Of a stretch of 64,000 bases of DNA, positions 50,310 to 64,000 are shown piece after piece. A program made the translations under genes and the position numbers. How positions within the stretch are numbered: the first letter of the stretch is position 1; each line of letters opens with the position of its first letter. The notes beneath the pieces are model-generated. The model had not been told where the DNA came from, searched no databases, and saw nothing but the letters and a program-made list of their open reading frames with translations. The stretch comes from Promicromonospora soli (GTDB lineage: Bacteria > Actinomycetota > Actinomycetes > Actinomycetales > Cellulomonadaceae): NCBI RefSeq assembly GCF_014653785.1, contig NZ_BNAS01000002.1, positions 470,807 to 534,806 on the forward strand, given 5' to 3'.

Positions 50310-51095
50310 TCAGCCCAGGCGTTCGCGCAGCCAGGCGATGTCCGGGGCCATGTCGCCCTTGGTCTCGCAGATGACGGGGGCGTCCGCCGCCGCGATCACA
50401 CCTACCAACAGCTCCTCGGGAATGGTGCCCTCGCCGAAGTGGGTGTGCCGGTCCGCGCCCGACCCTGCGGGGTCGCGCGAGTCGTTCGCATGCACCAGGT
50501 CGATGCGGCCCGTGATTGCGCGAACCTGGTCGACGGCCGTCGCGAGGTCGAACCCGCTGGCCCAGGCGTGGCACGTGTCGAGGGTGAACCCGACGTTGTC
50601 CCCGCCGTTGGCCGTGGCGATCGCCGCCCACAGCTGCTCGATCCGCTCCAGGCGGCGGGACATGGAGTAGTCGCCGCCCGCTGTGTTCTCGATGAGCACC
50701 GGGACGTCGGTCTCGAGGGCGTCGATGGCCTTGCGCCAGTTGTCGAACCCCTTGGCCGGCTCGTCGTTCGCGGTGACATGCCCGCCGTGCACCACCACGC
50801 CCTTGGCGCCGATCGCGCCGGCGCCGTCCATGATCTGCTGCAGCAGCTTGCGGCTCGGGATACGGATCCGGTTGTTGGTCGACGCCACGTTGATCACGTA
50901 CGGCGCGTGCACGTAGAGGTCCAGGCCGGCCGCCGCGGCGTCGGCGCGGAGCGCCTCCGCACCGCCCTCGTACGGAAGGTCCGGGACCTTCCACGCCTGC
51001 GGGTCGCTGAGGAACACCTGCACCGTGTCCGCGCCGAGCGTCTTCGCCGCGCCGATCGCGTCGGTCAGGTCCACGTGTGCGCCGATCTTCACCAT
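50310..51095 (-). CDS. nfo: Endonuclease IV (AP endonuclease)
   Basis: A 261-residue TIM-barrel AP endonuclease for base-excision repair. Zn ligands and motifs are visible: KIGAHVDLT, LYVHAPYVIN, VVVHGGHVT, VLIENTAGGD, TLDTCHAWASGFD, VHANDSRDPAGSGADRH (with HTHFGEG after it) and ICETKG. ATG 51095 lies 6 nt after -10 TAGGGT, so the mRNA is probably leaderless. Confidence 0.95.
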   Translation of the reverse strand: MVKIGAHVDLTDAIGAAKTLGADTVQVFLSDPQAWKVPDLPYEGGAEALRADAAAAGLDLYVHAPYVINVASTNNRIRIPSRKLLQQIMDGAGAIGAKGVVVHGGHVTANDEPAKGFDNWRKAIDALETDVPVLIENTAGGDYSMSRRLERIEQLWAAIATANGGDNVGFTLDTCHAWASGFDLATAVDQVRAITGRIDLVHANDSRDPAGSGADRHTHFGEGTIPEELLVGVIAAADAPVICETKGDMAPDIAWLRERLG

Positions 51096-51198: not shown

Positions 51199-52854
51199 TC
51201 AACCGATCCCGCGGATGCCGACCGGGGTGACCTCCAGCAGGTTGCCGTCCACCGCGACCAGCCGGGCGGCCTGACTCTGGCTGACGACGCCGGCCGCGGT
51301 CCCGTCCCAGACCAGCGCGCCCGACGCGGCGTCGAGCGACACCAGCCCGGACCCACGGGACTCGCCCCGCAGCACGAGGAGCACGGACTGCCCGTCGCTG
51401 AAGGCCTGGGACACGTACGCGTTGCCGTAGCGCCAGTCGTCCACGCCCTCGGCGGGATCCCACGCCCACCGCAGGTCGCCAGTGGCGAGGTCCAGTCCGT
51501 GGACCCTCCCGTCCCAGACCGTGAAGGCCACTGCCATCCCGGCGACCTGGGCGAGGAACTGCGGGCTTCCGGCCTCTATCGCGGCTTCCCAGCGCCGTGT
51601 CCCGTCAGCCGAATAGGACAGCAGGTGCTGCCCGGACCGGTCGGCTGCGAGGAGCGTCGCCGCATCGGGCTCGTCCGTGGTCTGCGGACGGCTCACCCGC
51701 CCGGCGATCTCGCCGACGACGTCACCGTCGGGGGAGAACAGCAGGCTGTTCATCGTGCCGTCGGACGCGCGGACGATCGTCTGCGCGACATACCCGCCTG
51801 TGTCGAGGCTGAACACCGAGCTCGACCCCGGCTCACCGTCCCTGGTGAGCACCACACCGTCCGAGGTGACTGCAGCGCGGAGGCCGCAGCCCCGCACGTC
51901 GACGAGATCCGCCTCGATCTGCGCGCCGAACGCATCGGGGTCGAGCTGGTCGGTGGTCCTCGACCCGTCCCAGAGCACGCCGAGCCCGACCCAGCAGGCC
52001 TCGGCCGCCATCGCCCGGAACGGAACGGTCACGCTCCAGCGCACCTCGCCCGTTACCGCGTCCTCGGCACGCAGGAGCAGGTCCCGGCCGCCCTCGATCG
52101 TCAGGGTGCATCCCATGTCGGTGCACTCGGCGGTGCCCAGGTCCACAGGTGTCCGGGGCCCGACTCGCTTGGCGCGCAGCACGGTCGCGTCCGGCCCGGG
52201 GCGGGGGCTCCCGTACCGCCCCGCGTCCCCGGCTTCGAGCACCCGAGGGGCCGAGGCCACACCGTCGGGCCCCACGGTGATGACTGCACGGCTCGCGCCA
52301 GAACCCTGCAGGCATACCAGGGCCGACGCCGCTATCTCGGATGCCCCCGGGTAACCGGTCGGCCCGCAGTCCGGGTCCACGCCGAGCGGGACGGTCCAAG
52401 CCTCCTCGCCGGATGCCGGGTCCAGTGCGACCAGCTCGCCGTCGGACTCGAAGACGAGCAGGTCGCCGAGGGCGGCCACCTTGGTCCGGCTTCGGTCCGC
52501 GAAGGCCCCGAGGGAACCGACCTCGCCCTCCCAAGCCCACGTCTGCCGCATGGGCGTGGACACGTCCACGACACCCCCGCGGACGTCGCGTATCCGCTCC
52601 ATCCGGGCGTTGTCCCGCACGCCGTCGACGACGAACCCCGTCCCGAGCGCGATCGCCAGCACCGCTGCGACCGGCCCGAGCGTACGTAGTCCGCGGCCCA
52701 GGCCGGACACCGGCGGCCGGCTCGCCGCTGAGTCGTTCTCGTCCGGGACTTCCGTGCCGCCGGGACGCGGCGGGGCGACGGGCGCGTCCGGGTCGCCCGC
52801 ATCGTCGACCAGGTCGAAGACGAACGCATCGCCCCCGCCCGGATCAGTTGCCAT
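51199..52854 (-). CDS. Membrane-anchored PQQ-type beta-propeller protein, paralogue 1
   Basis: A 551-residue type II membrane protein. N-terminal cytosolic peptide DAFVFDLVDD, a membrane helix (GPVAAVLAIALGTGFVVDGV), a juxtamembrane MERIRDVRGGVVDV, then a 6-8-bladed propeller made of GxLVALDPASGEEAWTVPLG-type PQQ/BamB blades. Three cysteine pairs are visible (DPDCG/LVCLQG; ECTDMGC; EACW/VRGCGL), suggesting disulfides outside the cell. It ends with TPVGIRGIG. ATG 52854 lies 7 nt after -10 TACTCT. Confidence 0.9.
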   Translation of the reverse strand: MATDPGGGDAFVFDLVDDAGDPDAPVAPPRPGGTEVPDENDSAASRPPVSGLGRGLRTLGPVAAVLAIALGTGFVVDGVRDNARMERIRDVRGGVVDVSTPMRQTWAWEGEVGSLGAFADRSRTKVAALGDLLVFESDGELVALDPASGEEAWTVPLGVDPDCGPTGYPGASEIAASALVCLQGSGASRAVITVGPDGVASAPRVLEAGDAGRYGSPRPGPDATVLRAKRVGPRTPVDLGTAECTDMGCTLTIEGGRDLLLRAEDAVTGEVRWSVTVPFRAMAAEACWVGLGVLWDGSRTTDQLDPDAFGAQIEADLVDVRGCGLRAAVTSDGVVLTRDGEPGSSSVFSLDTGGYVAQTIVRASDGTMNSLLFSPDGDVVGEIAGRVSRPQTTDEPDAATLLAADRSGQHLLSYSADGTRRWEAAIEAGSPQFLAQVAGMAVAFTVWDGRVHGLDLATGDLRWAWDPAEGVDDWRYGNAYVSQAFSDGQSVLLVLRGESRGSGLVSLDAASGALVWDGTAAGVVSQSQAARLVAVDGNLLEVTPVGIRGIG

Positions 52855-52861
52855 GGGGCCG

Positions 52862-52867
52862 AGAGTA
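52862..52867 (-). promoter_or_regulatory. -10 box of propeller paralogue 1
   Basis: TACTCT on the minus strand, 7 nt before ATG 52854. Same context as in paralogues 2-4 (AT-TACNCT-cgNccNc-ATG type). A leaderless mRNA is predicted. Confidence 0.7.
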
Positions 52868-52929
52868 TGCCTGGCAGGTCCCAGTCACACCCAAGAGGCG
52901 CGGCCGCTCATTCGGCCCGGCCCACTCAC

Positions 52930-54597
52930 TCACCCCAGCCCGCGGACGCCGGCGGGCGTGACCTCCAGCAGGTTGCCGTCCACGGCGATCAGCGACTTGT
53001 CGAACTCCTGGGCCGTGGCGTCGGTGACGGCCTCCTGCGCGTGCTGCTCCCAGACCACCTCGCCCGAGTCCACATCGAGCGACACCAGCCCTGCGCGGCC
53101 GGAGCCGTTCTCGGTGAGGAGGAGGACGGACTGCCCGTCGGTGAAGGTCCGGGACACGTACAGGTCCTCGAGGTGCGTACCGTCGGCGTCGGCCGAGCTG
53201 TCCCACACCCACCGCTCGTCGCCGGTGGCGACGTCCAGCCCGTGCACCGTCCCGGAGCCCGTCATGACCACCGCCGTCCCGTCCACCTGAGCGAGGAAGA
53301 GCTGGGTGTCCGCCGCCGGCGTCTGGACCACCTCCCAGCGCAGCGTCGTGTCCGTCTCGTAGGCCCGCAGGCGCGGCCCGGACGCCACCAGGAACGTGGC
53401 CGGCCCCGACCCGTCCGTCACACCAGGTTCCAGCGCATGGCCTGCTATCTCGCCGACACGGTCACCGTCGGCGGCGTACAGGACGGTCCCCGCCGTGCCC
53501 TCGAAGGTGGACTCGGTGAACCCGCCCCCGGCGAGGCTGGTCACGCCGCCCATCCCGGGCTCGATCGTCGTGCCGAGCGGCACCCCGTCCGCGGTCACGG
53601 CGGCCTCGATCCCGCAGCCGTACAGCTGCACCAGATCGGCCGCGATCCGCGCACCGAAGGCGCCGGGGTCGAGCATCTGCTCGAAGTCCACCCAGTTGTC
53701 CGAGCCGTCCCAGGACGTGCCGAGCCAGTTGTTGCACTGGTCGGCGCGCGTAGACCGGAACGGGACAGTCACGCTCCAGCGCTCCTCGCCCGTGACCGCA
53801 TCCTCGGCGCGGAGCACCAGGCCCTGGCCCGCCTCGACGGTCCCGGTGCACTCACCCATGTCGTTGCACACCGCGTCCCCGACGTCCACCGCCGATCCGT
53901 CCCGCTTCGCACGCAGCACCGTCCCGCCTGGCCCGGACCGGGGTTCCCCAAATTTCCGCGTGTCGGCAGAGTCGAGCGCCCGCGGGGCCCGGACCACGCC
54001 CCCGGGCCCGACCACCGTGACCTCGCGGTCGGCGCCGGCGCCCTGGAGACACACCAGGGCCGACGTCGCCACGTTCTCCCACCCGGCGGCACCGAACGGT
54101 CCGCAGTCGGGGTCCTCGCCCAGGGGTACGGTCCACGCCTCGTCGCCAGTAGCCGGGTTCAGGGCGATCAGCTCGCCCTCGGACCGGAACACGAGCATGT
54201 CGCCGAGCACGGCCACCTCGTTCCGCCGCCCCTCGTCGATGGCCTCGCGGGAACCGACGAGGCCCTCCCACTTCCACGTTTCCTTCAGCGGGGAGGAGAC
54301 GTCTGCGACACCCCCGCGGACGTCGCGCATCCGTTCCATCCGCGCGTCGTCCCGCACGCCGTCGACCGCCAGTCCGGTGCCGAGGGCGACGGCGAGGAGC
54401 GCCGCGACGGGCGCGATCGTTCGCAGCTTCCCACCCGGCCCGCCCGACGTCGGCGGCTCGCCGCTCCCGAGTTCGTCACCGTCCGGATCTTCCCCGCCAT
54501 CAGCACCGGTGCGGGTGAGCTGTGCCTCGGGACCGGCCGTGCCGTCGTCGACCAGGTCGAAGACGAACGCACCGCCCTCGACCGGGTCGCGTGCCAT
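52930..54597 (-). CDS. Membrane-anchored PQQ-type beta-propeller protein, paralogue 2
   Basis: A 555-residue protein with GAFVFDLVDD at residues 9-18, a membrane helix (VAALLAVALGTGLAVDGV), the juxtamembrane MERMRDVRGGVADV and the propeller (GELIALNPATGDEAWTVPLG). The cysteine pairs are DPDCG/LVCLQG, AVCNDMGEC and QCNNW/LYGCGI. It ends with TPAGVRGLG. ATG 54597 lies 7 nt after -10 TACCCT. The close match to paralogue 1 across the whole length indicates tandem duplication. Confidence 0.9.
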   Translation of the reverse strand: MARDPVEGGAFVFDLVDDGTAGPEAQLTRTGADGGEDPDGDELGSGEPPTSGGPGGKLRTIAPVAALLAVALGTGLAVDGVRDDARMERMRDVRGGVADVSSPLKETWKWEGLVGSREAIDEGRRNEVAVLGDMLVFRSEGELIALNPATGDEAWTVPLGEDPDCGPFGAAGWENVATSALVCLQGAGADREVTVVGPGGVVRAPRALDSADTRKFGEPRSGPGGTVLRAKRDGSAVDVGDAVCNDMGECTGTVEAGQGLVLRAEDAVTGEERWSVTVPFRSTRADQCNNWLGTSWDGSDNWVDFEQMLDPGAFGARIAADLVQLYGCGIEAAVTADGVPLGTTIEPGMGGVTSLAGGGFTESTFEGTAGTVLYAADGDRVGEIAGHALEPGVTDGSGPATFLVASGPRLRAYETDTTLRWEVVQTPAADTQLFLAQVDGTAVVMTGSGTVHGLDVATGDERWVWDSSADADGTHLEDLYVSRTFTDGQSVLLLTENGSGRAGLVSLDVDSGEVVWEQHAQEAVTDATAQEFDKSLIAVDGNLLEVTPAGVRGLG

Positions 54598-54604
54598 GCG
54601 GTCG

Positions 54605-54610
54605 AGGGTA
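54605..54610 (-). promoter_or_regulatory. -10 box of propeller paralogue 2
   Basis: TACCCT on the minus strand, 7 nt before ATG 54597. A leaderless mRNA is predicted. Confidence 0.7.
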
Positions 54611-54641
54611 TGCCGGGGAGGTCAGGGTTACATCCGAAACC

Positions 54642-56339
54642 TCATCCGAGACCGCGGACGCCGGTCGAGGTGACCTCCAGCAGGTTGCCGTCCACCGCCA
54701 CCAGGTCGCCCGAAACGCCCCGTTCGACCACGTCGCCGTTGCGCGGGTCGAACGCGGTGGTCGCCCCGCCACCGGCCTGGTGCCAGACCACCTCGCCCGA
54801 GCCGGCGTCGAGCACCACCATGCCGCGGGCTCCGCCGCTCTCCACCACGTTCAGCAGCAGCACGAGCTCGCCGTCGGTGAACGCCTGCGCCACGTTGGCG
54901 CTCCCGAAGTAGCCGCCGTCCGAGCCCGACTCGGCGCCGGAGCCGTCCCAGAGCCACTTGTCCTCGCCCGTGGCCAGGTCCAGGCCGCGCACGGTCCCGG
55001 CCCCGCTCGTGATCACCACCGTCTCGCCCACCTGGGCGAGGAACTCCTGCCCGCCCGACTGGAGCGTGATGTCCCAGCGCACGGTCCCGTCCGCCTCGTG
55101 GGCTGTCATCCGCCGTCTGGGTTCGTCGATGGCGATCAGCGTGGCCGCACCCGCCTCGTCCGTGGACCGCGCGGGGATCACGTACCCGCTGATCTCGCCG
55201 ACCACGTCGCCGGCGTCGTCGTACAGGGTGGTTCGCGGCACGTCGCTCCAGGTCGTGCCCAGGTACCCGCCCGAACCGAGCCCGTCCACGAAGCTCAGGC
55301 CCGGCGGGAACGCGGCGCCGAGGAGCACGCCGTCGGGTGTGACAGCCGACTGGACGCCGCAGCCCTGCAGGTTGATGAGGTCGGCCCAGACCCGGGCGCC
55401 GAAGGCGTCGGGGGCGAGCTGCCCGTTGAGATCCACCCGGTTCTCCGAGCCGCCCCACTCCGCGCCGTACGTGGTGGTGCACTGCAAAGCCGGCGTCGCC
55501 CGGAACGGTATCGTCACGCTCCAGCGCACCTCGCCCGTGACCGCGTCCTCCGCGCGGAGGACCAGATCCCGCCCGGTCCGGATGATCCCGGTGCACTCTC
55601 CCGCCCCGTTGCACCGGGTGTCGCGGTCCACCGCCGACACGGGCCCCACGCGCATCGCGCGCAGCACCGTTCCGTCCGGCCCGGTGTGGGGCGACCCGTG
55701 CTCCCGCGATTCCGCGGCGTCGAGCACCCGCGGCGCCGACGCCGCGCCGCCGGGCCCGACCACCATCGCCGCGCGGCTTGCGCCGCGCCCCTCCAGGCAC
55801 ACCAGCGACGGCGTCCTCGGGTCCTCCCACACCGGTGAGACCACCGGCCCGCACTCCGGGTCCTCGCCGAGCGGGATGGTCCAGGTCTCCTCGCCCGTGG
55901 CAGGGTCCAGCGCGACCAGCTCACCCTTGGACTCGAACACCAGCTCGTCGCCGAGCACCGCGACATCGGTGGTGCCCTCGCCGACGTCGACCGCACCGCT
56001 CCAGGCCCAGACCTGATCCAGCGGCGAGGCCAGGTCCGTCACGCCCCCGGGGACGTCACGCATCCGCTCCATCCGCGCGCCGTCGCGGGCGCCGTCGACC
56101 GCGAGCCCGGTGCCGAGCACTATCGCGAGGACCGCCGCCACCGGCGCGGCACCTCGCCACGTCCAGCCCGGGCGGGCCGGGACCGGCGGCTCGCCCGACC
56201 AGGCCTCGTCGCCGTCAGCGCCGGCCCGGCCGTACGCGCCGTCCGCGCCGTCCGGGCGTGTCGGCACATCGAGGCCGACGGCGTCGTCGTCGACCAGATC
56301 GAAGACGAACGCCTCACCCTCGTCCGGGTCGCGCGCCAT
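54642..56339 (-). CDS. Membrane-anchored PQQ-type beta-propeller protein, paralogue 3
   Basis: A 565-residue protein with EAFVFDLVDDDAV at the start, a membrane helix (APVAAVLAIVLGTGLAVDGA), MERMRDVPGGVTDL and a propeller (GELVALDPATGEETWTIPLG). Cysteine pairs are DPECG/LVCLEG, RCNGAGEC and QCTTT/LQGCGV. It ends with TSTGVRGLG. ATG 56339 lies 7 nt after -10 TACGCT. The N-terminal tail is longer and acidic (DGADGAYGRAGADGDE). Confidence 0.9.
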   Translation of the reverse strand: MARDPDEGEAFVFDLVDDDAVGLDVPTRPDGADGAYGRAGADGDEAWSGEPPVPARPGWTWRGAAPVAAVLAIVLGTGLAVDGARDGARMERMRDVPGGVTDLASPLDQVWAWSGAVDVGEGTTDVAVLGDELVFESKGELVALDPATGEETWTIPLGEDPECGPVVSPVWEDPRTPSLVCLEGRGASRAAMVVGPGGAASAPRVLDAAESREHGSPHTGPDGTVLRAMRVGPVSAVDRDTRCNGAGECTGIIRTGRDLVLRAEDAVTGEVRWSVTIPFRATPALQCTTTYGAEWGGSENRVDLNGQLAPDAFGARVWADLINLQGCGVQSAVTPDGVLLGAAFPPGLSFVDGLGSGGYLGTTWSDVPRTTLYDDAGDVVGEISGYVIPARSTDEAGAATLIAIDEPRRRMTAHEADGTVRWDITLQSGGQEFLAQVGETVVITSGAGTVRGLDLATGEDKWLWDGSGAESGSDGGYFGSANVAQAFTDGELVLLLNVVESGGARGMVVLDAGSGEVVWHQAGGGATTAFDPRNGDVVERGVSGDLVAVDGNLLEVTSTGVRGLG

Positions 56340-56346
56340 GCGGCTG

Positions 56347-56352
56347 AGCGTA
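56347..56352 (-). promoter_or_regulatory. -10 box of propeller paralogue 3
   Basis: TACGCT on the minus strand, 7 nt before ATG 56339. A leaderless mRNA is predicted. Confidence 0.7.
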
Positions 56353-56427
56353 ACCCCGGGCGGGGGCTCGTTTCAGGCCTCGCCTGCCGCCCTGCGCCGT
56401 GCCTCCGGCTCAGGCGGCTCCGGGACC

Positions 56428-58020
56428 TCATCCCAGGCCCGTCAGGCCGTCCGTGGTCATCTCGACGATGTGCCCGTCGACGGCGAGCGCCATGCCGGTC
56501 ATCGGCACGTCCCAGAGCTGCTCGCCGGTACTCAGGTCGAGTGCCACGAGCAGCCCGCCACCGGTGCGCTGCCGCGGCCGATACTCAAGGGCCACGATCT
56601 CGCCGTCCGTCAGGGTGCGGTAGCTCGACAGCCCGGACACTTCCTCGCTGCCCCAGGACCAGAGCCGCACGCCGGTCGCGCGGTCCAGGCCTGCCACCCG
56701 GCCGCTGCGGTTCACTACCACCACGTCACGCGCGGCGAGCAGCACGCTCTGGCTGAGCCGGTCGGTCCAGGCCACCGTCCCGTCCTTGCGCATGGCCTCG
56801 AACCCGTGGGATCCCGAGAAGACGAACCACAGGTCGTCGGGGGCATCGGGCGACGTGGCCGGGATCCGCACAAAACCGTCCAGGGTGCGGACGATCTGGC
56901 CGAACTCGTCCACGACGACGGAGTTCGTCGCGTCCCCCTGCAGGGTGTAGCGGCCGGGCTCCAGCTCGTTCACCCACGGCGACGAGCTCGGGTCGGTGCG
57001 CACAGCGAGATCGAGCCGCACACCCGGCAGCGACAGCGTCGCCGATATGCCGCAGCCGTCCAGGACGACGGTCTCCGCCCCCGAGCGGACGGTGACATGG
57101 TCCGTGTCGACCACAGGGCCGGCGTCGCCGGTGCCGGGGTCGATCCGCTGGCAGTTGATCGTGTGCACCGGGGTGAACGCGACGGTGCTCGCCCAGCGTT
57201 CGGCGCCCGTCGCGGCGTCCTCCGCGATGACGAGCACGTCGCGCCCGTCGGTCAGGACCGACGGCGTGCACACACCCGTCGGCCGGCACACCACGTCCTC
57301 GGTCTCGTCGCCGGTCCGGGTCACCCGCACCGCCATGCCGTCGGGCCCGGGGAAGATCTGCTCGCCGTCGGCCAGGTCCGCGGCCCGGGACCGGGTGCTG
57401 CCGTCGGGGGCGATCGTCAGCACGTCCCGCGCGTCGTCAGGGCCGTGCACGCACACCAGCACGTCGGTCGACGCCGAACCGTCGTAGCCGCTCGGCCCGC
57501 ACTGGGACCTCTCGTCCAGGGGGACCCGCCAGACGATCTCGCCCGAGCCGGGGTCGATCGCCACGACGTCCTCGAACCCGGCCGGCTCCGGTCCGGCCGC
57601 CCCGGACGAGGCGTCGACCGTATAGCTCTGCGCGCTCCCCGGGAGCAGCACCAGCAGCCCGTCCATGGTCACCAGCTGCTGGTCCACGAACGCGTCCTGA
57701 CCCCCCTGAGGGGGGAAGTCGAACGGCAGGGTCCATATCTCCTCGGGCGGACCATCGAGCGAGGCCACGCCTGCCGGCGAGGTACGCATCAGCTCCGCGC
57801 GCCGATGGTCCCGCACGAGGTCGGCCGCGACCATCGCGACCACCACAGCTGCGACCACCGAGGCGGCGACCAGCCAGGTACGCCGCGACAACCGGGGCAG
57901 CCGGAGCCGACGCCGGGCCGGGGGACCGTCCGAGGCGTCGCCGTCGGATCCCGGGGCGGCGTCCCTGTTGCCCTCGACCAGGTCGAAAACAACGGGGTCC
58001 TGCTCGTCGTGCCGCTCCAT
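56428..58020 (-). CDS. Membrane-anchored PQQ-type beta-propeller protein, paralogue 4
   Basis: A 530-residue, more diverged member. N-terminus DPVVFDLVEGNRD, membrane helix (WLVAASVVAAVVVAMVAADLV), juxtamembrane RRAELMRTSPAGV, and a propeller (TIDPGSGEIVW-like blades, ATGVRLWSWG). Cysteine pairs persist (RSQCGPSGYDG/LVCVHG; DVVCRPTGVCT; NCQRI/LDGCGI). It ends with TTDGLTGLG. ATG 58020 lies 6 nt after -10 TAGGCT. Confidence 0.88.
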   Translation of the reverse strand: MERHDEQDPVVFDLVEGNRDAAPGSDGDASDGPPARRRLRLPRLSRRTWLVAASVVAAVVVAMVAADLVRDHRRAELMRTSPAGVASLDGPPEEIWTLPFDFPPQGGQDAFVDQQLVTMDGLLVLLPGSAQSYTVDASSGAAGPEPAGFEDVVAIDPGSGEIVWRVPLDERSQCGPSGYDGSASTDVLVCVHGPDDARDVLTIAPDGSTRSRAADLADGEQIFPGPDGMAVRVTRTGDETEDVVCRPTGVCTPSVLTDGRDVLVIAEDAATGAERWASTVAFTPVHTINCQRIDPGTGDAGPVVDTDHVTVRSGAETVVLDGCGISATLSLPGVRLDLAVRTDPSSSPWVNELEPGRYTLQGDATNSVVVDEFGQIVRTLDGFVRIPATSPDAPDDLWFVFSGSHGFEAMRKDGTVAWTDRLSQSVLLAARDVVVVNRSGRVAGLDRATGVRLWSWGSEEVSGLSSYRTLTDGEIVALEYRPRQRTGGGLLVALDLSTGEQLWDVPMTGMALAVDGHIVEMTTDGLTGLG

Positions 58021-58026
58021 GACGGG

Positions 58027-58032
58027 AGCCTA
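58027..58032 (-). promoter_or_regulatory. -10 box of propeller paralogue 4
   Basis: TAGGCT on the minus strand, 6 nt before ATG 58020. A leaderless mRNA is predicted. Confidence 0.7.
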
Positions 58033-58090
58033 CTCGCGTGACCCCCTTCGATCGCCTGAGGCTACGGGTCGGGCCCGTTCTCCGGTCGGC

Positions 58091-59857
58091 TCAGCCGAGC
58101 CCCACGACACCCCGCTGCGTGATCTGCGCGAGGTAGCCGTCGACGGCTACCAGCTGCGTGTACGGGGTGTCCTGCTCGATCTCCCACCGCACCGAACCGT
58201 CACGGAGGTCGATAGCGAGCAGCCGCAGGCCGGTGCCCTCACCGCCCGGGTCCGCCGCCACCGGGAGCAGCAGGGTGTCGCCGTCCGTATAGGCCCCGAA
58301 GACTACGGAGTCCGCGGTCCGGCCCATGCCGCCGAGCGAGAGCACGTCGGGGTCGATCGTCCAGCGGTCCGCGCCCGTGCCGAGGTCGATGGCGCGCACC
58401 GCCCCCGGGTCGTCGACGACGACGGCGGTGCCGGACACCTGGGCCAGCAGCGCCGTGGCCCAGAGATCGGGGGCGGTCCAGACCCGCGCGCCCGCGTCGC
58501 CCTCGTCGGTGGAGCGTGCCTCCGTGCGCACGCCGACGCGCTCCAGCAGCAGCCCCGGGTCGCGGCCGTCGGTGGCCCAGGGCAGGAGGGCCTGGCCTTC
58601 GAGGGTGACAGTGCCGCCGTCCGGCAGGTGCACGACGTCGTTGGGCGCGCCGCCTTCGGTGGGCTCCGTGCCGGGCCGGACCCAGCCGCCGTCGGGCAGG
58701 GAACCGAACGAGGCGGAGTCCACGCCGTAGGCCGGCGGGTCCGCGGGGTCCTCCGGGTCGTCGAGGCGCGTGCCGTCGAGCAGGAACGCCGCCGAGACGC
58801 CGCAGCCCTCGACCTCGATGACGTCGCCGTGCAGGTCCCAGCCCAGGGAGCCGGCGACGTCGAGCGCCGGGGCGTTGTCGCTGTAGGTGACGCAGCCCTC
58901 GGGCCGCGGCGCACCGAAGGCGACGGTCTCGCTCCAGCGCTCCGTGCCGGTGGCGGCGTCCTCCTGGCGGACGACCAGGTCCGGACCGACGAAGCCCTTC
59001 GGGAGGTGGGGGACGCCCAGCTTGTCGACCAGCGCGGGCCGCGGCTCCTGGTCGCCGCCCCTCAGCTCGAAGGAGACCAGACCACCGCCGGCCGCGGGAG
59101 CGACCACGGCCGCCGGGTCGAGCTCCCGGGTCGTCGCCGTACCGTCCGGGTCGATGACCGTGACGGCCTGCTCCTTGCCGTCACCGGAGGCGGTGACGCA
59201 GACCAGGGGGTCGGCCGGCTCCACGGCGCCGCCGCGTCCGCCGCTGCCGATGTGCGTCGCCGAGCCGCAGTCCGGGTTCTCGCCGACCTCGACGGTCCAG
59301 AGCACCTCGCCCGACGCCGGGTCCACGCCGCGGACCTTCTCGTCGCCGGCGATCGCGAGGATGCCCGGCATCTCGATCAGGGTCGCCGCGATGGGGTTGT
59401 CGAGGTCGATCGACCACTGCTCGGTTGGCTTGGTCTCCAGGCTCCGCACGCCACCGGGGGCGGCGACGAGCGCCCGCTCGCGCAGCTGCGCGTTCACCAG
59501 GACCCCAGCCGTCACCGCGAGCACGACCACGACGGCCGTGCCGCCGGCCAGCAGCACCTTGCCGCGCCGCGTGGTGGGCAGCCGCCGTCGGACGGCCGCC
59601 CCTCCACGCCGCGCCGTCTGCCCGACGGCGGTGCGGGCGCCCGCGAGCGCCAGCGCGACCCGGCTGGGGCCTCGCGGGGCGGGCTCCTCGGCGGGCTTCG
59701 CCTCGCCGTCAGCCCCGTCATCGGCGGGGTCGACGCCGTCCGGGTCGGCCCCGCCGTCGGACGCTCCGGGCACCTCGTCGATGAGGTCGAAGGTGTGTAC
59801 CGTCTCCGGATCGTGGGTTCCGGACCCGGTGTCGTCGTGCTGGGTGCGTTCAGTCAC
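58091..59857 (-). CDS. Membrane-anchored PQQ-type beta-propeller protein, paralogue 5 (ABC operon)
   Basis: A 588-residue member starting at GTG 59857 (VTERTQHDD). N-terminus HTFDLIDEV, a long Pro/Ala/Asp-rich linker (GASDGGADPDGVDPADDGAD), a basic stretch and a membrane helix (VLLAGGTAVVVVLAVTAGVLV), then a propeller (GVDPASGEVLWTVEVG). Two cysteine pairs are kept (NPDCGS/LVCVTA and GCVTY/VEGCGV), while the middle pair is absent. It ends with TQRGVVGLG. GTG 59857 overlaps the ABC permease stop by 4 nt, so, unlike the other four, it is translated from the natAB-like operon. Confidence 0.88.
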   Translation of the reverse strand: MTERTQHDDTGSGTHDPETVHTFDLIDEVPGASDGGADPDGVDPADDGADGEAKPAEEPAPRGPSRVALALAGARTAVGQTARRGGAAVRRRLPTTRRGKVLLAGGTAVVVVLAVTAGVLVNAQLRERALVAAPGGVRSLETKPTEQWSIDLDNPIAATLIEMPGILAIAGDEKVRGVDPASGEVLWTVEVGENPDCGSATHIGSGGRGGAVEPADPLVCVTASGDGKEQAVTVIDPDGTATTRELDPAAVVAPAAGGGLVSFELRGGDQEPRPALVDKLGVPHLPKGFVGPDLVVRQEDAATGTERWSETVAFGAPRPEGCVTYSDNAPALDVAGSLGWDLHGDVIEVEGCGVSAAFLLDGTRLDDPEDPADPPAYGVDSASFGSLPDGGWVRPGTEPTEGGAPNDVVHLPDGGTVTLEGQALLPWATDGRDPGLLLERVGVRTEARSTDEGDAGARVWTAPDLWATALLAQVSGTAVVVDDPGAVRAIDLGTGADRWTIDPDVLSLGGMGRTADSVVFGAYTDGDTLLLPVAADPGGEGTGLRLLAIDLRDGSVRWEIEQDTPYTQLVAVDGYLAQITQRGVVGLG

Positions 59858-61071
59858 GCCCCGAGGGTAGTGCCCCGGTCCCCGGCCAGGGCCGTCTTCC
59901 ACGTGACCCGGCCGCCGGTCTGCATGAGCGCCCCGCGATAGGCGCGCTCGCTCAGCAGCACCGCGCCGAACGTCGCCGCCACCAGGATGAGGAGCGACAC
60001 CAGCGGCTCCCACCACAGGGCGTCCCCGTTGAGGACACGCACGGGCATCGACACGATGGAGGCCGGCGGGATGTAGGAAAGGACCCGTTCGAGCACGCCG
60101 TCGGCCGAGAACGTCACCACGTAGACGGCCATCAGCAGCATCATCAGGGGGCTCGTCGTGTACTGGAGGTCCTCGGTGCGGGACGCGAGCGAGCCCGCCA
60201 CCGCGTAGAGGGCCGCCACCGCGACGAACCCGACGGTGAAGAAGACGACGAACCACAGCATGGTGGCCGTCATCGCGGGCAGCATGGCCGACAGGTCGGT
60301 GAACGAGATGCCGACGAGCCCGATGGCGGCGAGCAGGAGGTTCTGCGACAGCGCGATCACCGAGCTGCCGATGATCTTGCCCGCCAGCAGCTGCCGCAGG
60401 GGCACCGCCGTCGCGATGATCTCGACGAGCCGGGACTGCTTCTCCTCGATCACGCTGCCCGCGATCATCGCGCCCGAGCCCACCGCACCCATGAAGAACA
60501 GGAACGCGAGCACGAATCCGGCCGCGAAGACGATCTCCGGGTCCACCGGGTTGCCGTCGAGCCGTTCGGTCCCGATCTCGCTGCCCGCCGTGAGGGCTTC
60601 GACGGTGGTTCCGGCGTCCGTCGCCCGCTCGGCCATGACCTGCTCGCGCACCGTGGTCTCGACCAGGTCGGCGAGGTCCGTGTCGGGTTCCCGCCAGCCG
60701 GACAGGGTCCAGCCCGCCGCGCCGTCGGTGGCCGCTGCGCCGTCGGTGCCGGAGCTGAGCCACGCGTCGGCGGTCTCGTCCTCGAGCGCAGCCTCGGCCG
60801 CGGCCGCGTCGTCCACCCGCACCACGCTGAGCGCGATCCGCTGGTCCGACGCCGTGGCGTCCTCGGCGGCGGACTCGAGTGCGGTCGCCGCGGCCTCGTC
60901 GCCGGCGACGACTGCGACGTCGAACGACTCGGTGCGGCTGTCCATGTAGGACGTGAAGCCGATCAGCCCGCCGATCATCGCGATGGTGACCGCGAGACCG
61001 ATCAGGAACCCCTTGTTGAGCGCCCGCACCACGATCTCGCGGGTCGCCACCACCATCCATGCGTTCCTCAT
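59854..61071 (-). CDS. ABC-2 permease (NatB-like)
   Basis: A 405-residue permease. An N-terminal helix (VRALNKGFLIGLAVTIAMIGGLIGF) and a ~190-residue extracytosolic domain precede five C-terminal helices (FAAGFVLAFLFFMGAVGSGAMIAGSVIEEK onward). VIEEKQSRLVEIIATAVPLRQLLAGKII is the NatB/YhaP-like hallmark. It overlaps the ATPase (ATGA) and the propeller gene (4 nt). Confidence 0.9.
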   Translation of the reverse strand: MRNAWMVVATREIVVRALNKGFLIGLAVTIAMIGGLIGFTSYMDSRTESFDVAVVAGDEAAATALESAAEDATASDQRIALSVVRVDDAAAAEAALEDETADAWLSSGTDGAAATDGAAGWTLSGWREPDTDLADLVETTVREQVMAERATDAGTTVEALTAGSEIGTERLDGNPVDPEIVFAAGFVLAFLFFMGAVGSGAMIAGSVIEEKQSRLVEIIATAVPLRQLLAGKIIGSSVIALSQNLLLAAIGLVGISFTDLSAMLPAMTATMLWFVVFFTVGFVAVAALYAVAGSLASRTEDLQYTTSPLMMLLMAVYVVTFSADGVLERVLSYIPPASIVSMPVRVLNGDALWWEPLVSLLILVAATFGAVLLSERAYRGALMQTGGRVTWKTALAGDRGTTLGA

Positions 61072-61967
61072 GAGGTCACCTCGCGGTAGATCTGGGCCAG
61101 CGTGGGCCGTACGGGCGAGAACTCCTGGACCGCACCCCGCTCGAGGGCGGCGGACAGGAGGCGGGTGGCCGCGGCGTCGTCGTGCACCTCGACCAGCGCG
61201 GACGAGCCGTCCACGTCCACTGCCAGAACGCCCGGCACGCCACGTACGAACCCAGCGTCGCCCGACAGCACCAGCCGGTGCCGCGTGAAGCCCTTTGTCC
61301 GCAGCTCGTCCGGGGTGCCGCTCGCGAGAACCCTTCCGCCGCCGAGGATGACGAGGCGCTCGCACAGCCGCTCCACGAGGTCGAGCTGGTGCGAGCTGAA
61401 CAGCACCGGGACCCCGCGCCGCGTGTGCTCGCGGAGCAGGTCGGCCATGGCGTCGACGGCCGCCGGGTCCAGGCCGCTGAACGGCTCGTCCAGGACGAGC
61501 GCCTTCGGCTGTCCCATGATCGCCGCGACGATCTGCACGCGCTGCTGATTACCGAGCGAGAGCTTCTCGACGTGGTCCTTGGCCCGGCCCGCGAGCCCCA
61601 GCCGGTCGAGATGCTCCAGCACCTCGCGCCGGGCCACCGGCGCCGCGATACCCCGCAGGCGCGCCAGGTAGACGAGCTGCTCCAGCACAGGCTGTTTCGG
61701 GTAGAGGCCGCGCTCCTCGGGCATGTACCCGAACTCACGGCGGTCGTGCCGGGTCACGGGTGCGCCGCCGAACCGCACCTCGCCCCGCGTGATCGCCAGG
61801 ACTCCCATGATCATCCGCATTGTCGTCGTCTTGCCCGCGCCGTTCCCGCCCACGAACCCCGTGAGCAGGCCCGACGACGCCGTGAAGCTCACGCCGTCGA
61901 CCGCCCGCCGGGGTGTGTCGCCCGAGGCGAACACGCGGGTCAGGTCCCGCACCTCCAGATCGCTCAT
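61068..61967 (-). CDS. ABC ATP-binding protein (NatA-like)
   Basis: A 299-residue nucleotide-binding protein. Walker A GGNGAGKTT, signature LSLGNQQRV, Walker B ALVLDEPFSGLD and switch His in FSSHQLDLVERL are visible; the C-terminal domain ends LAQIYREVTS. ATG 61967 lies 7 nt after -10 TAGCGT. It is the first gene of the three-gene operon with the permease and propeller paralogue 5. Confidence 0.93.
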   Translation of the reverse strand: MSDLEVRDLTRVFASGDTPRRAVDGVSFTASSGLLTGFVGGNGAGKTTTMRMIMGVLAITRGEVRFGGAPVTRHDRREFGYMPEERGLYPKQPVLEQLVYLARLRGIAAPVARREVLEHLDRLGLAGRAKDHVEKLSLGNQQRVQIVAAIMGQPKALVLDEPFSGLDPAAVDAMADLLREHTRRGVPVLFSSHQLDLVERLCERLVILGGGRVLASGTPDELRTKGFTRHRLVLSGDAGFVRGVPGVLAVDVDGSSALVEVHDDAAATRLLSAALERGAVQEFSPVRPTLAQIYREVTS

Positions 61968-62352: not shown

Positions 62353-62898
62353 GTGCGTAAGCGTTTGATCGTCACAGGAACGGCCGCAGCACTGGTGCTG
62401 ACGGCCGGCATCGTGGGTGCCGTAGCAGTACAGCCGCCGGAGCAGGAGCGGCAGACAGCAACCGGGGCGTCCGAGCCCGACGCGCTGCAGGGACTACCGC
62501 CGATGATGCTGAAGCACGAGCCCGTGTCCAGCCCGGCGGAGAACGGCACGGTCGACGTGCACGGGAAGAAGAAGCCCGAGCCGCCGAAGAACCCGTTCAC
62601 GTATGCGCCGGCGCCTAAGCCGGAGTCCACGAGTCCCACGTACGCAGTCCGGCCGACCAGCCGATTCACCATCACGCCTCAGCCGGGTACCGGCTTCGGG
62701 AGTGGCGTCCGCCCTGTCAGGCCGTCGTACCCCATCGACCCGCCCGGCCTGCGGCCGACGAACCCGCCGACACCGAGGCCGACGCCTCGGCCGTCGCCCA
62801 CTCCGTCGCCCACGCTCACTCCGTCGCCGAGCCCGAGCCCGTCGTCGAGCCCTTCACCGGAACCGTCGGCGAGCCCTTCAGAAGAATCGGCCGAATAG
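62353..62898 (+). CDS. Secreted or membrane-anchored proline-rich protein
   Basis: A 181-residue protein. A signal/anchor helix (LIVTGTAAALVLTAGIVGAVAV, residues 5-26) is followed by an extended Pro/Ser/Thr-rich region, ending in repeats of TPRPTPRPSPTPSPT and SPSPSPSSSPSPEPS type. Such tails span the cell wall. GTG 62353 has GGGGAG 6 nt upstream. No enzymatic domain is seen; a surface spacer or adhesion-related role is possible. Confidence 0.75.
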   Translation: MRKRLIVTGTAAALVLTAGIVGAVAVQPPEQERQTATGASEPDALQGLPPMMLKHEPVSSPAENGTVDVHGKKKPEPPKNPFTYAPAPKPESTSPTYAVRPTSRFTITPQPGTGFGSGVRPVRPSYPIDPPGLRPTNPPTPRPTPRPSPTPSPTLTPSPSPSPSSSPSPEPSASPSEESAE

Positions 62899-63091: not shown

Positions 63092-64000
63092 TTAGATCGG
63101 CTTGAGTCGTGCGATCAGGCCCGCAATGCCGTCCTTGAACTGGCGCCCCACAGAGGGCCCGATCGCGGGGCCCGCGCCATCGGTCGCGTCGGCGAACGCG
63201 GCCGGGATCGCCTCCCACATGTCCTTCGCGCGCTGGACGAGCCAGTCGGGGTCGACAGCAAGGTCGGCGGCCGCTTTCTCCAGCTCGCGCCAGCCGATAC
63301 GCCTGATCCCGTACTCGCCGCCGAGCTTCATGGCAAGTTTGCCCTGGTAGAAGACCTCCCGGTCGTCCATGACAAGCGCAGCGGACATCAAGTCGTAGAG
63401 CGGCGCAAGGGTGGCGCTGCCCCCCGCGTGGATGAGTGCGTAGTTCTTCGCGTGCGCATCTGTGCCAGCAGTCAGCCAGTTGAAGACCGTCGCCTCAGCG
63501 AACCTCTGGCGCACTCGCTCCAGCCGCCGAGGCGTGCTGACCCTGCCGAACAGACCGGCGATGTCACCTGCGGAAGGCCCGCCATCGGCCTGGTATTTGA
63601 GAGTCCGGGGTAGGCCGAGTGCCTGACACACGTCCTCCTGATGCACCCGTCGTGGAGGCAGGCCCGATGCCCAACCTGGACCCGACTCGTCCGTGCGATC
63701 GAAGCGCTCGACGACGACCGCCAGCTCCTCGCCGAAGGTGCAGAGTTCGATCCCCGCCGTTTGGAGCCCTAGCGCGTGCGCCGCGCGCATCGTCACGTAC
63801 TCAGCGGCATCGCTGTCGGCCAGGCGCGCAACACCCACCTTGAAGATGTGGGTGCTCGGCTCCCGACCCGTCGGCAGCCCCCAGCCCCCGTCAGCCCGAC
63901 GGGCGAGTGCAAACTTCCCCTGTTGACCGCCGAGTGACCAGCGTCCGCCGGTTTCCACGAAGTCCCATGCACTGTCGTCCTGGCGAAGGACCCGGAGATG
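63092..64000 (-). CDS. hipA: HipA-family kinase toxin, N-terminus outside window
   Basis: About 303 residues of a HipA-type Ser/Thr kinase, open to the window edge (the frame reads HLRVLRQDDSAWDF at 64000-63959). The ATP-site and catalytic motifs are SLGGQQGKFALA near the start, GTDAHAKNYALI (catalytic Asp and Asn) and LAPLYDLMSA (Mg2+ Asp). The family phosphorylates tRNA synthetases and is neutralised by a HipB antitoxin, usually encoded just upstream. Such a gene would lie beyond 64000 and is not visible. The extent is limited by the window. Confidence 0.88.
   Translation of the reverse strand, partial: HLRVLRQDDSAWDFVETGGRWSLGGQQGKFALARRADGGWGLPTGREPSTHIFKVGVARLADSDAAEYVTMRAAHALGLQTAGIELCTFGEELAVVVERFDRTDESGPGWASGLPPRRVHQEDVCQALGLPRTLKYQADGGPSAGDIAGLFGRVSTPRRLERVRQRFAEATVFNWLTAGTDAHAKNYALIHAGGSATLAPLYDLMSAALVMDDREVFYQGKLAMKLGGEYGIRRIGWRELEKAAADLAVDPDWLVQRAKDMWEAIPAAFADATDGAGPAIGPSVGRQFKDGIAGLIARLKPI

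Follow-up and report, generated by a model that had tools for sequence, protein, structure and literature searches.

A 64,000-nucleotide window of the genome of Promicromonospora, a soil bacterium, contains five adjacent paralogous open reading frames (ORFs) at positions 51199–59857, all on the minus strand, confirming the tandem reported in a preliminary description of the locus. We named the genes in order of transcription: p1 (58091–59857; the paralogue numbered 5 in that description), p2 (56428–58020), p3 (54642–56339), p4 (52930–54597), and p5 (51199–52854). Each encodes an N-terminal tail, a membrane helix, and a propeller, and p1, which has a GTG start, also encodes an arginine-rich helix between the tail and the membrane helix. 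The array is flanked by the deoxyribonuclease IV gene nfo (50310–51095, minus strand), which lies outside the system. Upstream, here and in relatives, are genes for an ABC-2 permease (PF12698; 59854–61086, start codon approximate) and an ABC ATPase (PF00005 and DrrA1-3_C; 61068–61967), both on the minus strand and putatively linked to the array in function. The GTG start of p1 overlaps the permease stop codon by 4 nt (GTGA). Neither this transporter nor the promoter-like element that precedes each array gene appeared in the preliminary description.

A profile search found relatives in other genera whose tails carry the peptide. Strong matches came only from a single taxonomic family among the sampled genomes, and 55 genomes of other families gave no match. 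From 140 profile-matching ORFs, many of them the same genome retrieved twice, we retained 87 after removing those below 35 bits, those shorter than 440 residues, and those with identical last 200 residues. In 79 of the 87, a start was assigned by a rule that itself requires a relaxed version of the motif; this set underlies the hexamer, codon, tree, and conservation analyses, and its conservation figures are partly circular. Motif frequency was instead counted in the 75 of 87 for which the hexamer by itself defined the start, leaving out three masked rows, one at a contig edge, and eight without a hexamer; among these eight, an [IVF][DE]-type peptide was visible by eye in six and absent in two. 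In a quick tree (no bootstrap), p1 to p5 fell into separate orthologue groups. Orthologues of p1, p2, and p3 were present in 11, 12, and 12 genomes, respectively, and the p5 group in only 7. The p3, p4, and p5 proteins cluster together (identity to p4 is 56% for p5 and 54% for p3), and p1 and p2 are only 31–34% identical to the other paralogues.

Propeller fold and cysteine pattern

All five proteins scored above the gathering cut-off of Pfam PQQ_2 (36.1, 57, 46.4, 45.8, and 39.9 bits for p1 to p5; cut-off 27.6), in keeping with the PQQ-type propeller first proposed, and PQQ_2 matched 29 of 29 members scanned at E 0.01. The single membrane helix following a short tail was also recovered. Structure models of p4 (pLDDT 83.7; residues 1–48 and 50–55 below 50; helix at 58–90; 33 strands) and p1 (pLDDT 77.9; residues 1–64 below 50) both have a disordered tail and then a long helix. 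Among the fold neighbours identified with Foldseek were designed propellers, BamB, and mycobacterial Rv3035 (rank 42). The superpositions were of low quality (rmsd about 9 Å; TM about 0.36 by query, 0.52 by BamB), which leaves the number of blades uncertain.

The number of cysteines agrees with the three pairs originally described, with two in one paralogue: p2 to p5 have six cysteines and p1 has four. In p4 numbering, the presumed pairs would be C165–C183, C244–C250, and C288–C328. Among relatives, 77 of 79 have an even number (76 of 78 if a partly masked row is left out), none of the 79 has a cysteine in the first 60 residues, and four cysteine positions are conserved at 95–100%. The further proposal that these pairs form disulfides outside the cell is supported indirectly by the even counts. 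The MRDV-type juxtamembrane stretch, said to be degenerate in two paralogues, reads MRDV in p3 and p4 and IRDV in p5, and its degeneracy lies where it had been placed, in p2 (MRTSPAGV) and p1 (LVAAPGGV). The GIG/GLG end holds for all five paralogues but is found in only 54 of 87 relatives.

BamB is a non-enzymatic propeller that acts as a binding scaffold at the membrane; it is a lipoprotein with a lipobox cysteine near its N-terminus. The array proteins share its repeat family (PF13360, PQQ_2) and have BamB as a fold neighbour, but they lack the lipobox cysteine and instead have a membrane helix, a cytosolic FDL tail, and conserved cysteine pairs. Their scores against the BamB equivalog TIGR03300 (19.8–35.7 bits) are below its cut-off of 285.2. 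Membrane kinases of the PknD type combine an inside part, one membrane helix, and an outside propeller. By description the array proteins would have the same layout, but no kinase domain was found in them and their inside part is a short disordered tail. The Rv3212 family (NF050114; cut-off 150) was matched weakly by p1 (residues 102–187, 18 bits) and p3 (residues 422–463, 19.9 bits), and not by p2, p4, or p5 at E 0.01. Rv3035, to which the array proteins are likened by fold only, is likewise an actinobacterial extracytoplasmic propeller. According to PMC12802301, its Mycobacterium marinum orthologue MMAR_1667 is a predicted lipoprotein with a predicted eight-bladed propeller and interacts with FecB and the arabinosyltransferase AftB, which offers a precedent for an extracytoplasmic propeller as an envelope scaffold.

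A short peptide in the cytosolic tails

The residues F-D-L are invariant across p1 to p5, as the preliminary description had observed. The tail motif is TFDLIDE in p1 (FDLI at 59780–59791), VFDLVEG in p2 (FDLV at 57976–57987), and VFDLVDD in p3, p4, and p5 (FDLV at 56292–56303, 54550–54561, and 52807–52818), all on the minus strand. Across the family, the peptide takes the form hydrophobic-[DE]-L-[VI], with acidic residues after it, and begins at about position 9–22 (9–14 or 22).

The peptide recurs in the tails beyond chance. When start calling made no use of the peptide, 72 of 75 tails had [FVIY][DE]L[VIATS] among their first 30 residues (56 of 56 from Promicromonospora and 16 of 19 from other genera), compared with 105 of 11,200 and 22 of 3,800 shuffled controls, respectively. 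Searching whole tails left the real counts unchanged and gave 223 of 11,200 and 67 of 3,800 in the controls. The peptide is thus neither confined to the five copies nor freely varying in related genomes, the two outcomes that had been named in advance as evidence against it. The three non-matching tails, all from outside the genus, have FDPV, FEFV, or no peptide.

Other genera keep the peptide while the linker drifts, but its core is relaxed in some Isoptericola. In two further genomes of this genus, FDL was kept in three of seven copies and replaced by FDV in four, and an FDI core occurs in one Isoptericola copy; this L-to-V/I relaxation is loose for a strict docking motif. The majority residue accounts for 84.5% at motif columns, 34% in the linker, and 45% in the propeller, a partly circular comparison because a relaxed version of the motif had been used to select the 79 rows. 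A second match to the peptide was found in 4 of 79 tails, compared with 51 of 7,900 shuffled remainders. In two Antribacter-clade proteins this is a second full FELV/FDLV copy with acidic residues, at positions 93 and 64, and two copies in one tail fit a docking peptide.

We searched the Promicromonospora genome for the peptide with a DNA pattern and with an N-terminus profile, and as an N-terminal tail it was found only in six propellers. Five of the eight DNA-pattern matches were family members (p2 falls outside that pattern). Judged from reading their translations, the other three were a Na+/H+-antiporter-like protein with an internal motif, an apparently antisense frame, and a ZIP-like transporter, and were rejected as tail-bearing membrane proteins. 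The six propellers ranked first with the profile (p1 at E 0.069, the other five at E 1e-5 or lower). Five others followed at E 0.23 or worse; four were inspected and in none of them is the match an N-terminal tail, and the fifth is the Na+/H+-antiporter-like protein already named.

Promoter-like elements at the start codons

A −10-like TANNNT hexamer precedes each array gene on the minus strand: TACCCT (59864–59869), 6 nt before the p1 start and within the 3′ end of the permease gene; TAGGCT (58027–58032), 6 nt before p2; and TACGCT (56347–56352), TACCCT (54605–54610), and TACTCT (52862–52867), 7 nt before p3, p4, and p5. In the set of 79 relatives, the hexamer ends 6–7 nt before the start codon in 68; none had it at any of 18 further offsets, and shuffling gave a mean of 0.2 at offset 7. 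In 7 of the 11 without it, the rule had picked an in-frame start upstream of the likely one. Four of seven new Isoptericola copies have the hexamer at the same 6- to 7-nt spacing.

This short, fixed distance makes it probable that each gene has its own promoter and is transcribed as a leaderless mRNA. As described in PMC3160421 and PMC3898074, leaderless actinobacterial genes have TANNNT just before the start codon, about 12–13 bp upstream, the same hexamer and distance as in the array. What sets the array family apart is that most tandem members have their own hexamer; the mechanism is not different. The neighbouring genes nfo, ABC ATPase, and ppc also look leaderless.

A proposed docking peptide and its alternatives

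We favor, at a probability of about one half, a reading in which the proteins are extracytoplasmic binding scaffolds that share a cytosolic docking peptide. Its starting points, namely the fold family, disordered tail, helix, cysteine pattern, peptide conservation, orthologue groups, and promoter-like element, were computed directly. Each protein would span the membrane once, with its N-terminus inside and its C-terminus outside. Outside, a disulfide-stapled, non-enzymatic PQQ/BamB-type propeller of about eight blades may offer a surface to which another envelope protein or a wall polymer binds. Inside, one short docking peptide in the disordered tail would bind a single cytosolic partner shared by every copy. 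On this view the lineages would be long-established outside specificities that all connect to that partner, and each copy would presumably have a promoter of its own and a leaderless mRNA. The propeller itself is of a known kind; what is unusual is a position-fixed cytosolic peptide that is kept while most of the stretch to the membrane drifts. A peptide that stays conserved while the disordered region around it varies is what a docking motif would look like. Against docking, no partner gene was found, and the strict form is missing from 3 of 19 tails outside the genus.

A tentative extension, with the odds against it, is that the FDL-acidic peptide is an undescribed docking motif that wires diversified propeller sensors, here five lineages, to one cytosolic hub. 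The failure to find the peptide tail on any unrelated membrane protein of this genome counts against a general hub. If a hub exists, the array would be a family of receptors lacking an output domain of their own: the outside would diversify while an inside peptide of 4–7 residues stays nearly fixed. The setting, several lineages side by side, each preceded by a promoter-like element, is unusual, and our search of open-licence PMC papers found no relevant literature on such an array. Docking predicts one partner common to the peptides of all copies; finding it would define a link from surface binding proteins to the cell interior in a group of Gram-positive soil bacteria.

Alternatively, the peptide could act without a dedicated partner, as an expression, membrane-insertion, or turnover signal of a leaderless mRNA, with the propellers acting alone outside; the array would then be an ordinary expansion of envelope propellers. 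We consider this unlikely. The peptide does lie at a fixed short distance from mostly leaderless-type starts, and synonymous codons are somewhat more uniform at the motif than elsewhere (of 163 conserved columns, those for valine rank 1 and 10 and that for leucine ranks 31). However, the codons track the amino acid, with GAC alternating with GAG, GTC with ATC, and TTC with ATC/GTC; the leaderless-looking neighbours start without the peptide; and the second full copies in two tails are far from the start. An operator or other DNA-level cause was also considered: TCGACCTGGTCGA reads as an inverted repeat in some copies, but in other genera the codons follow the amino acid. Third codon positions at the motif are mildly more uniform than average, and we rejected a DNA-level reading as the main cause.

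The propellers could also serve the adjacent ABC-2 exporter as extracytoplasmic accessory subunits, with the FDL peptide contacting its cytosolic side, which we judge rather improbable. Besides the overlap of p1 with the permease gene, 11 of the 13 Promicromonospora genomes examined have the ATPase–permease pair ahead of the propellers (one of the remaining two is cut by a contig end and the second is a fragmented draft with another order of pieces). The pair also precedes propellers in three Isoptericola genomes, in Antribacter soli (1.4 kb ahead of the first propeller found), and in a genome related to it (3.4 kb ahead). Outside the genus, permease identity in such arrangements is only 53–64%. 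Five other genomes have propellers and permeases only 31–37% identical, yet four propellers from genomes with such low-identity permeases retain the peptide or a close form. One of these four lies beside a nuclease gene, near nfo, without such a transporter, making plain conservation of gene order an adequate null. Conversely, permease homologues (29–41%) occur in four genomes without propellers at E 0.001.

Shared ancestry accounts for part of the similarity among paralogues. That recent tandem duplication alone explains the shared features, with no selection on the peptide, fits the clustering of p3 to p5 and the narrow distribution of the p5 group but is very unlikely, being largely contradicted by the peptide counts, by the widespread orthologue groups of p1, p2, and p3 and the low identity of p1 and p2, and by a linker that diverged while the peptide did not. 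A defense-system role was set aside, as PADLOC gave no match for the five propellers. PQQ-dependent dehydrogenases have a vicinal Cys-Cys at the PQQ site. The most improbable reading is that the array proteins are such dehydrogenases or other quinoprotein enzymes: PF01011 was matched by 15 of 29 members at E 0.01, and p3, p4, and p5 (28.1, 28, and 30.2 bits) slightly exceed its cut-off of 26.7 with no single stretch passing by itself, but 0 of 79 relatives have vicinal cysteines and p1 to p5 reach 14.9–24.9 bits against the TIGR03075 cut-off of 480, which together argue against an enzyme.

Array architecture and cysteine pattern

The preliminary description of five tandem paralogs with a shared FDL peptide was confirmed, F-D-L being identical in all five. 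The genes, termed p1 to p5 in transcription order, lie on the minus strand at 58091-59857 (p1, GTG start), 56428-58020 (p2), 54642-56339 (p3), 52930-54597 (p4), and 51199-52854 (p5), with gaps of 44-88 nt. The peptide lies in the predicted cytosolic tail, ahead of a single membrane helix. A sixth family member is encoded elsewhere in the genome (locus L030, 7319-8971). Eight Promicromonospora loci align with p1 across residues 1-587, their best segments being 61-76% identical to it, and a ninth matches part of p1 (60%). Across the array, GC skew reaches its minimum (-0.10 and -0.12 at 52001-56000, in 2-kb steps).

All five proteins exceeded the PQQ_2 cut-off. Structure models cover p1 and p4. 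In the p4 model (mean pLDDT 83.7), the tail is disordered up to residue 55; a helix at 58-90 includes the membrane segment, and the 33 predicted strands would roughly make up eight blades of four strands each. The p1 model (mean pLDDT 77.9) has a disordered tail up to residue 64, an additional arginine-rich helix (65-90), and then a long helix (96-131). Designed Cake propellers and BamB headed the solved fold neighbors in a structure comparison, in which Rv3035 ranked 42nd; superposition on the fold neighbors was poor (TM by query ~0.36). PDB matches by sequence profile search were mostly designed propellers, BamB, and quinoproteins. Among studied extracytoplasmic propellers of actinobacteria, the nearest precedent that we found is MMAR_1667/Rv3035, which has been reported together with FecB and an arabinosyltransferase, AftB (PMC12802301). 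Our literature search of open-licence papers found no published description of the FDL-tail propeller architecture, which is a variation on an already known propeller type.

We kept 87 distinct relatives, 79 of which received a motif-based start. An even number of cysteines was found in 77 of these 79 (six in 50, four in 23, and two in 4, one of them partly masked), and residues 1-60 contain none. Cysteines at positions 165, 183, 288, and 328 (p4 numbering) occur in 95-100% of the 79, and those at 244 and 250 in 63% and 42%. Seven copies from two added Isoptericola genomes each have four cysteines after the helix. The pattern fits two core disulfides plus one optional, with putative pairing.

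Putative start signals

A TANNNT hexamer lies 6-7 nt ahead of each start on the minus strand: 59864-59869 (p1, inside the permease gene), 58027-58032 (p2), 56347-56352 (p3), 54605-54610 (p4), and 52862-52867 (p5). Among the 79 motif-called genes, the spacing is 6 nt in 45 and 7 nt in 23; the 18 remaining offsets between 0 and 19 yielded none, and shuffled controls averaged 0.2 at offset 7. Four of the seven new Isoptericola copies have the hexamer. According to two studies, a TANNNT-type signal marks leaderless genes in Actinobacteria, where 19.2% of genes on average are leaderless (PMC3160421), and in M. tuberculosis TANNNT lies upstream of 73% of the primary starts (PMC3898074). The five hexamers are thus likely separate leaderless promoters within the array. 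With a putative start signal of its own in front of every gene, p1-p5 probably do not form just a single operon. The element is not special to the propeller family, since neighboring nfo (16/16), ABC ATPase (15/17), and ppc (6/8) genes show it too; it was absent from the permease (0/15), epimerase (0/13), nuclease (0/12), and HipA (0/1) genes.

Conservation and possible role of the FDL peptide

Because motif-based starts would make motif counts circular, we called starts from the hexamer alone, which 75 of the 87 relatives received. [FVIY][DE]L[VIATS] occurred within the first 30 residues of 72 of these 75 tails (56/56 in Promicromonospora, 16/19 in other genera); the other three have FDPV, FEFV, and no recognizable form. 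Shuffled tails matched in 105/11200 (Promicromonospora) and 22/3800 (other genera) cases. The peptide is therefore neither confined to these copies nor freely varying in relatives, the two outcomes that would have refuted the preliminary description. In the 79-row alignment, the majority residue averaged 84.5% in motif columns (a partly circular figure, given the motif-based starts), 34% in the linker, and 45% in the propeller. Other genera have FDLV, FELV, IELV, VELV, FDLI, or IDLT, mostly with a basic head before and acidic residues after, and two proteins of one Antribacter clade contain two full copies per tail (L014:12360-14180 and L031:10251-12086). The new Isoptericola copies have FDLV (3/7) or FDV (4/7), and one from the earlier sample has FDI, so the core is better written as hydrophobic-[DE]-[L, less often V/I].

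The genome that carries the array was searched with a DNA pattern encoding F-[DE]-L-[VIM]-[DE]-[DE], which p2 does not fit. There were eight matches, five within the propeller family; none of the other three is an N-terminal tail ahead of a single membrane helix, and the reversed pattern gave none. An N-terminus profile search ranked the six propellers first, and none of five weaker matches is an N-terminal tail. Within the reach of both searches, the peptide is a feature of the propeller family and not of a wider membrane-protein class in this genome.

We conclude that the constraint on the peptide is real. Most likely, with a probability of roughly one half, the propellers are extracytoplasmic binding scaffolds that share a predicted inside docking peptide: the propeller would bind outside the membrane, and the common FDL peptide would serve for docking inside the cell. 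A role of the FDL segment in expression, insertion, or turnover is somewhat unlikely; codons at the motif track amino-acid changes, and third codon positions there show a mild excess of uniformity.

Transporter neighborhood, range, and lineages

Directly upstream of the array lie minus-strand genes for an ABC ATPase (61068-61967; PF00005) and an ABC-2 permease (59854-61086; PF12698), which pair as an exporter; the permease stop codon shares 4 nt (GTGA) with the p1 start. Downstream lies the deoxyribonuclease IV gene, nfo. We examined 13 Promicromonospora genomes, and the order ATPase, permease, propellers is present in 11 of them; of the other two, one is interrupted by a contig end (G007) and one is a fragmented draft with the pieces in a different order (G009). 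It also recurs in three Isoptericola genomes (L111, L112, L113; the two added ones placed in the genus by their genus label), in Antribacter soli (L014), and in a related genome (L031), with 1.4 kb and 3.4 kb, respectively, between the permease and the first propeller found in the latter two. In G015, a permease of the same type (55%) lies about 10-12 kb away on the propeller's contig, and in five genomes with propellers the permeases are only 31-37% identical. We interpret this linkage as conservation of gene order, with or without a functional meaning, and consider it unlikely that the propellers are accessory subunits of the exporter.

A propeller match at E 0.001 was found in 24 of 39 near genomes: 13/13 in the genus (own genome included), 8/12 in the rest of the family, and 3/14 in other families, with weak E-values (7e-7 to 2e-4). 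A single-protein search at E 1e-8 in 59 genomes of the order gave four positives, all from the same family (own included), and 0/55 from other families. The range seen in the genomes sampled is one taxonomic family.

A quick-build tree of the 79 rows contains p1 (11 rows), p2 (12), p3 (12), p4 (10), and p5 (7) groups; the p1 group has two Antribacter-type sisters, three more Promicromonospora array rows sit outside the p3-p5 groups, and the L030 copy is sister to a P. iranensis copy (L019). The p1, p2, and p3 lineages are therefore old within the genus, and p4 and p5 are patchier. The eleven contiguous Promicromonospora loci have 3 to 5 copies each. It is highly improbable that the shared features reflect recent duplication without selection. 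Least probable is that the propellers are enzymes.

Beyond the transporter genes lies a gene for a HipA C-terminal-like protein (63092-63958; PF07804). Between it and the ATPase gene, a plus-strand frame (62353-62898) appears to encode a small protein; its N-terminus is signal-like, and its other end is repetitive and rich in proline and serine.
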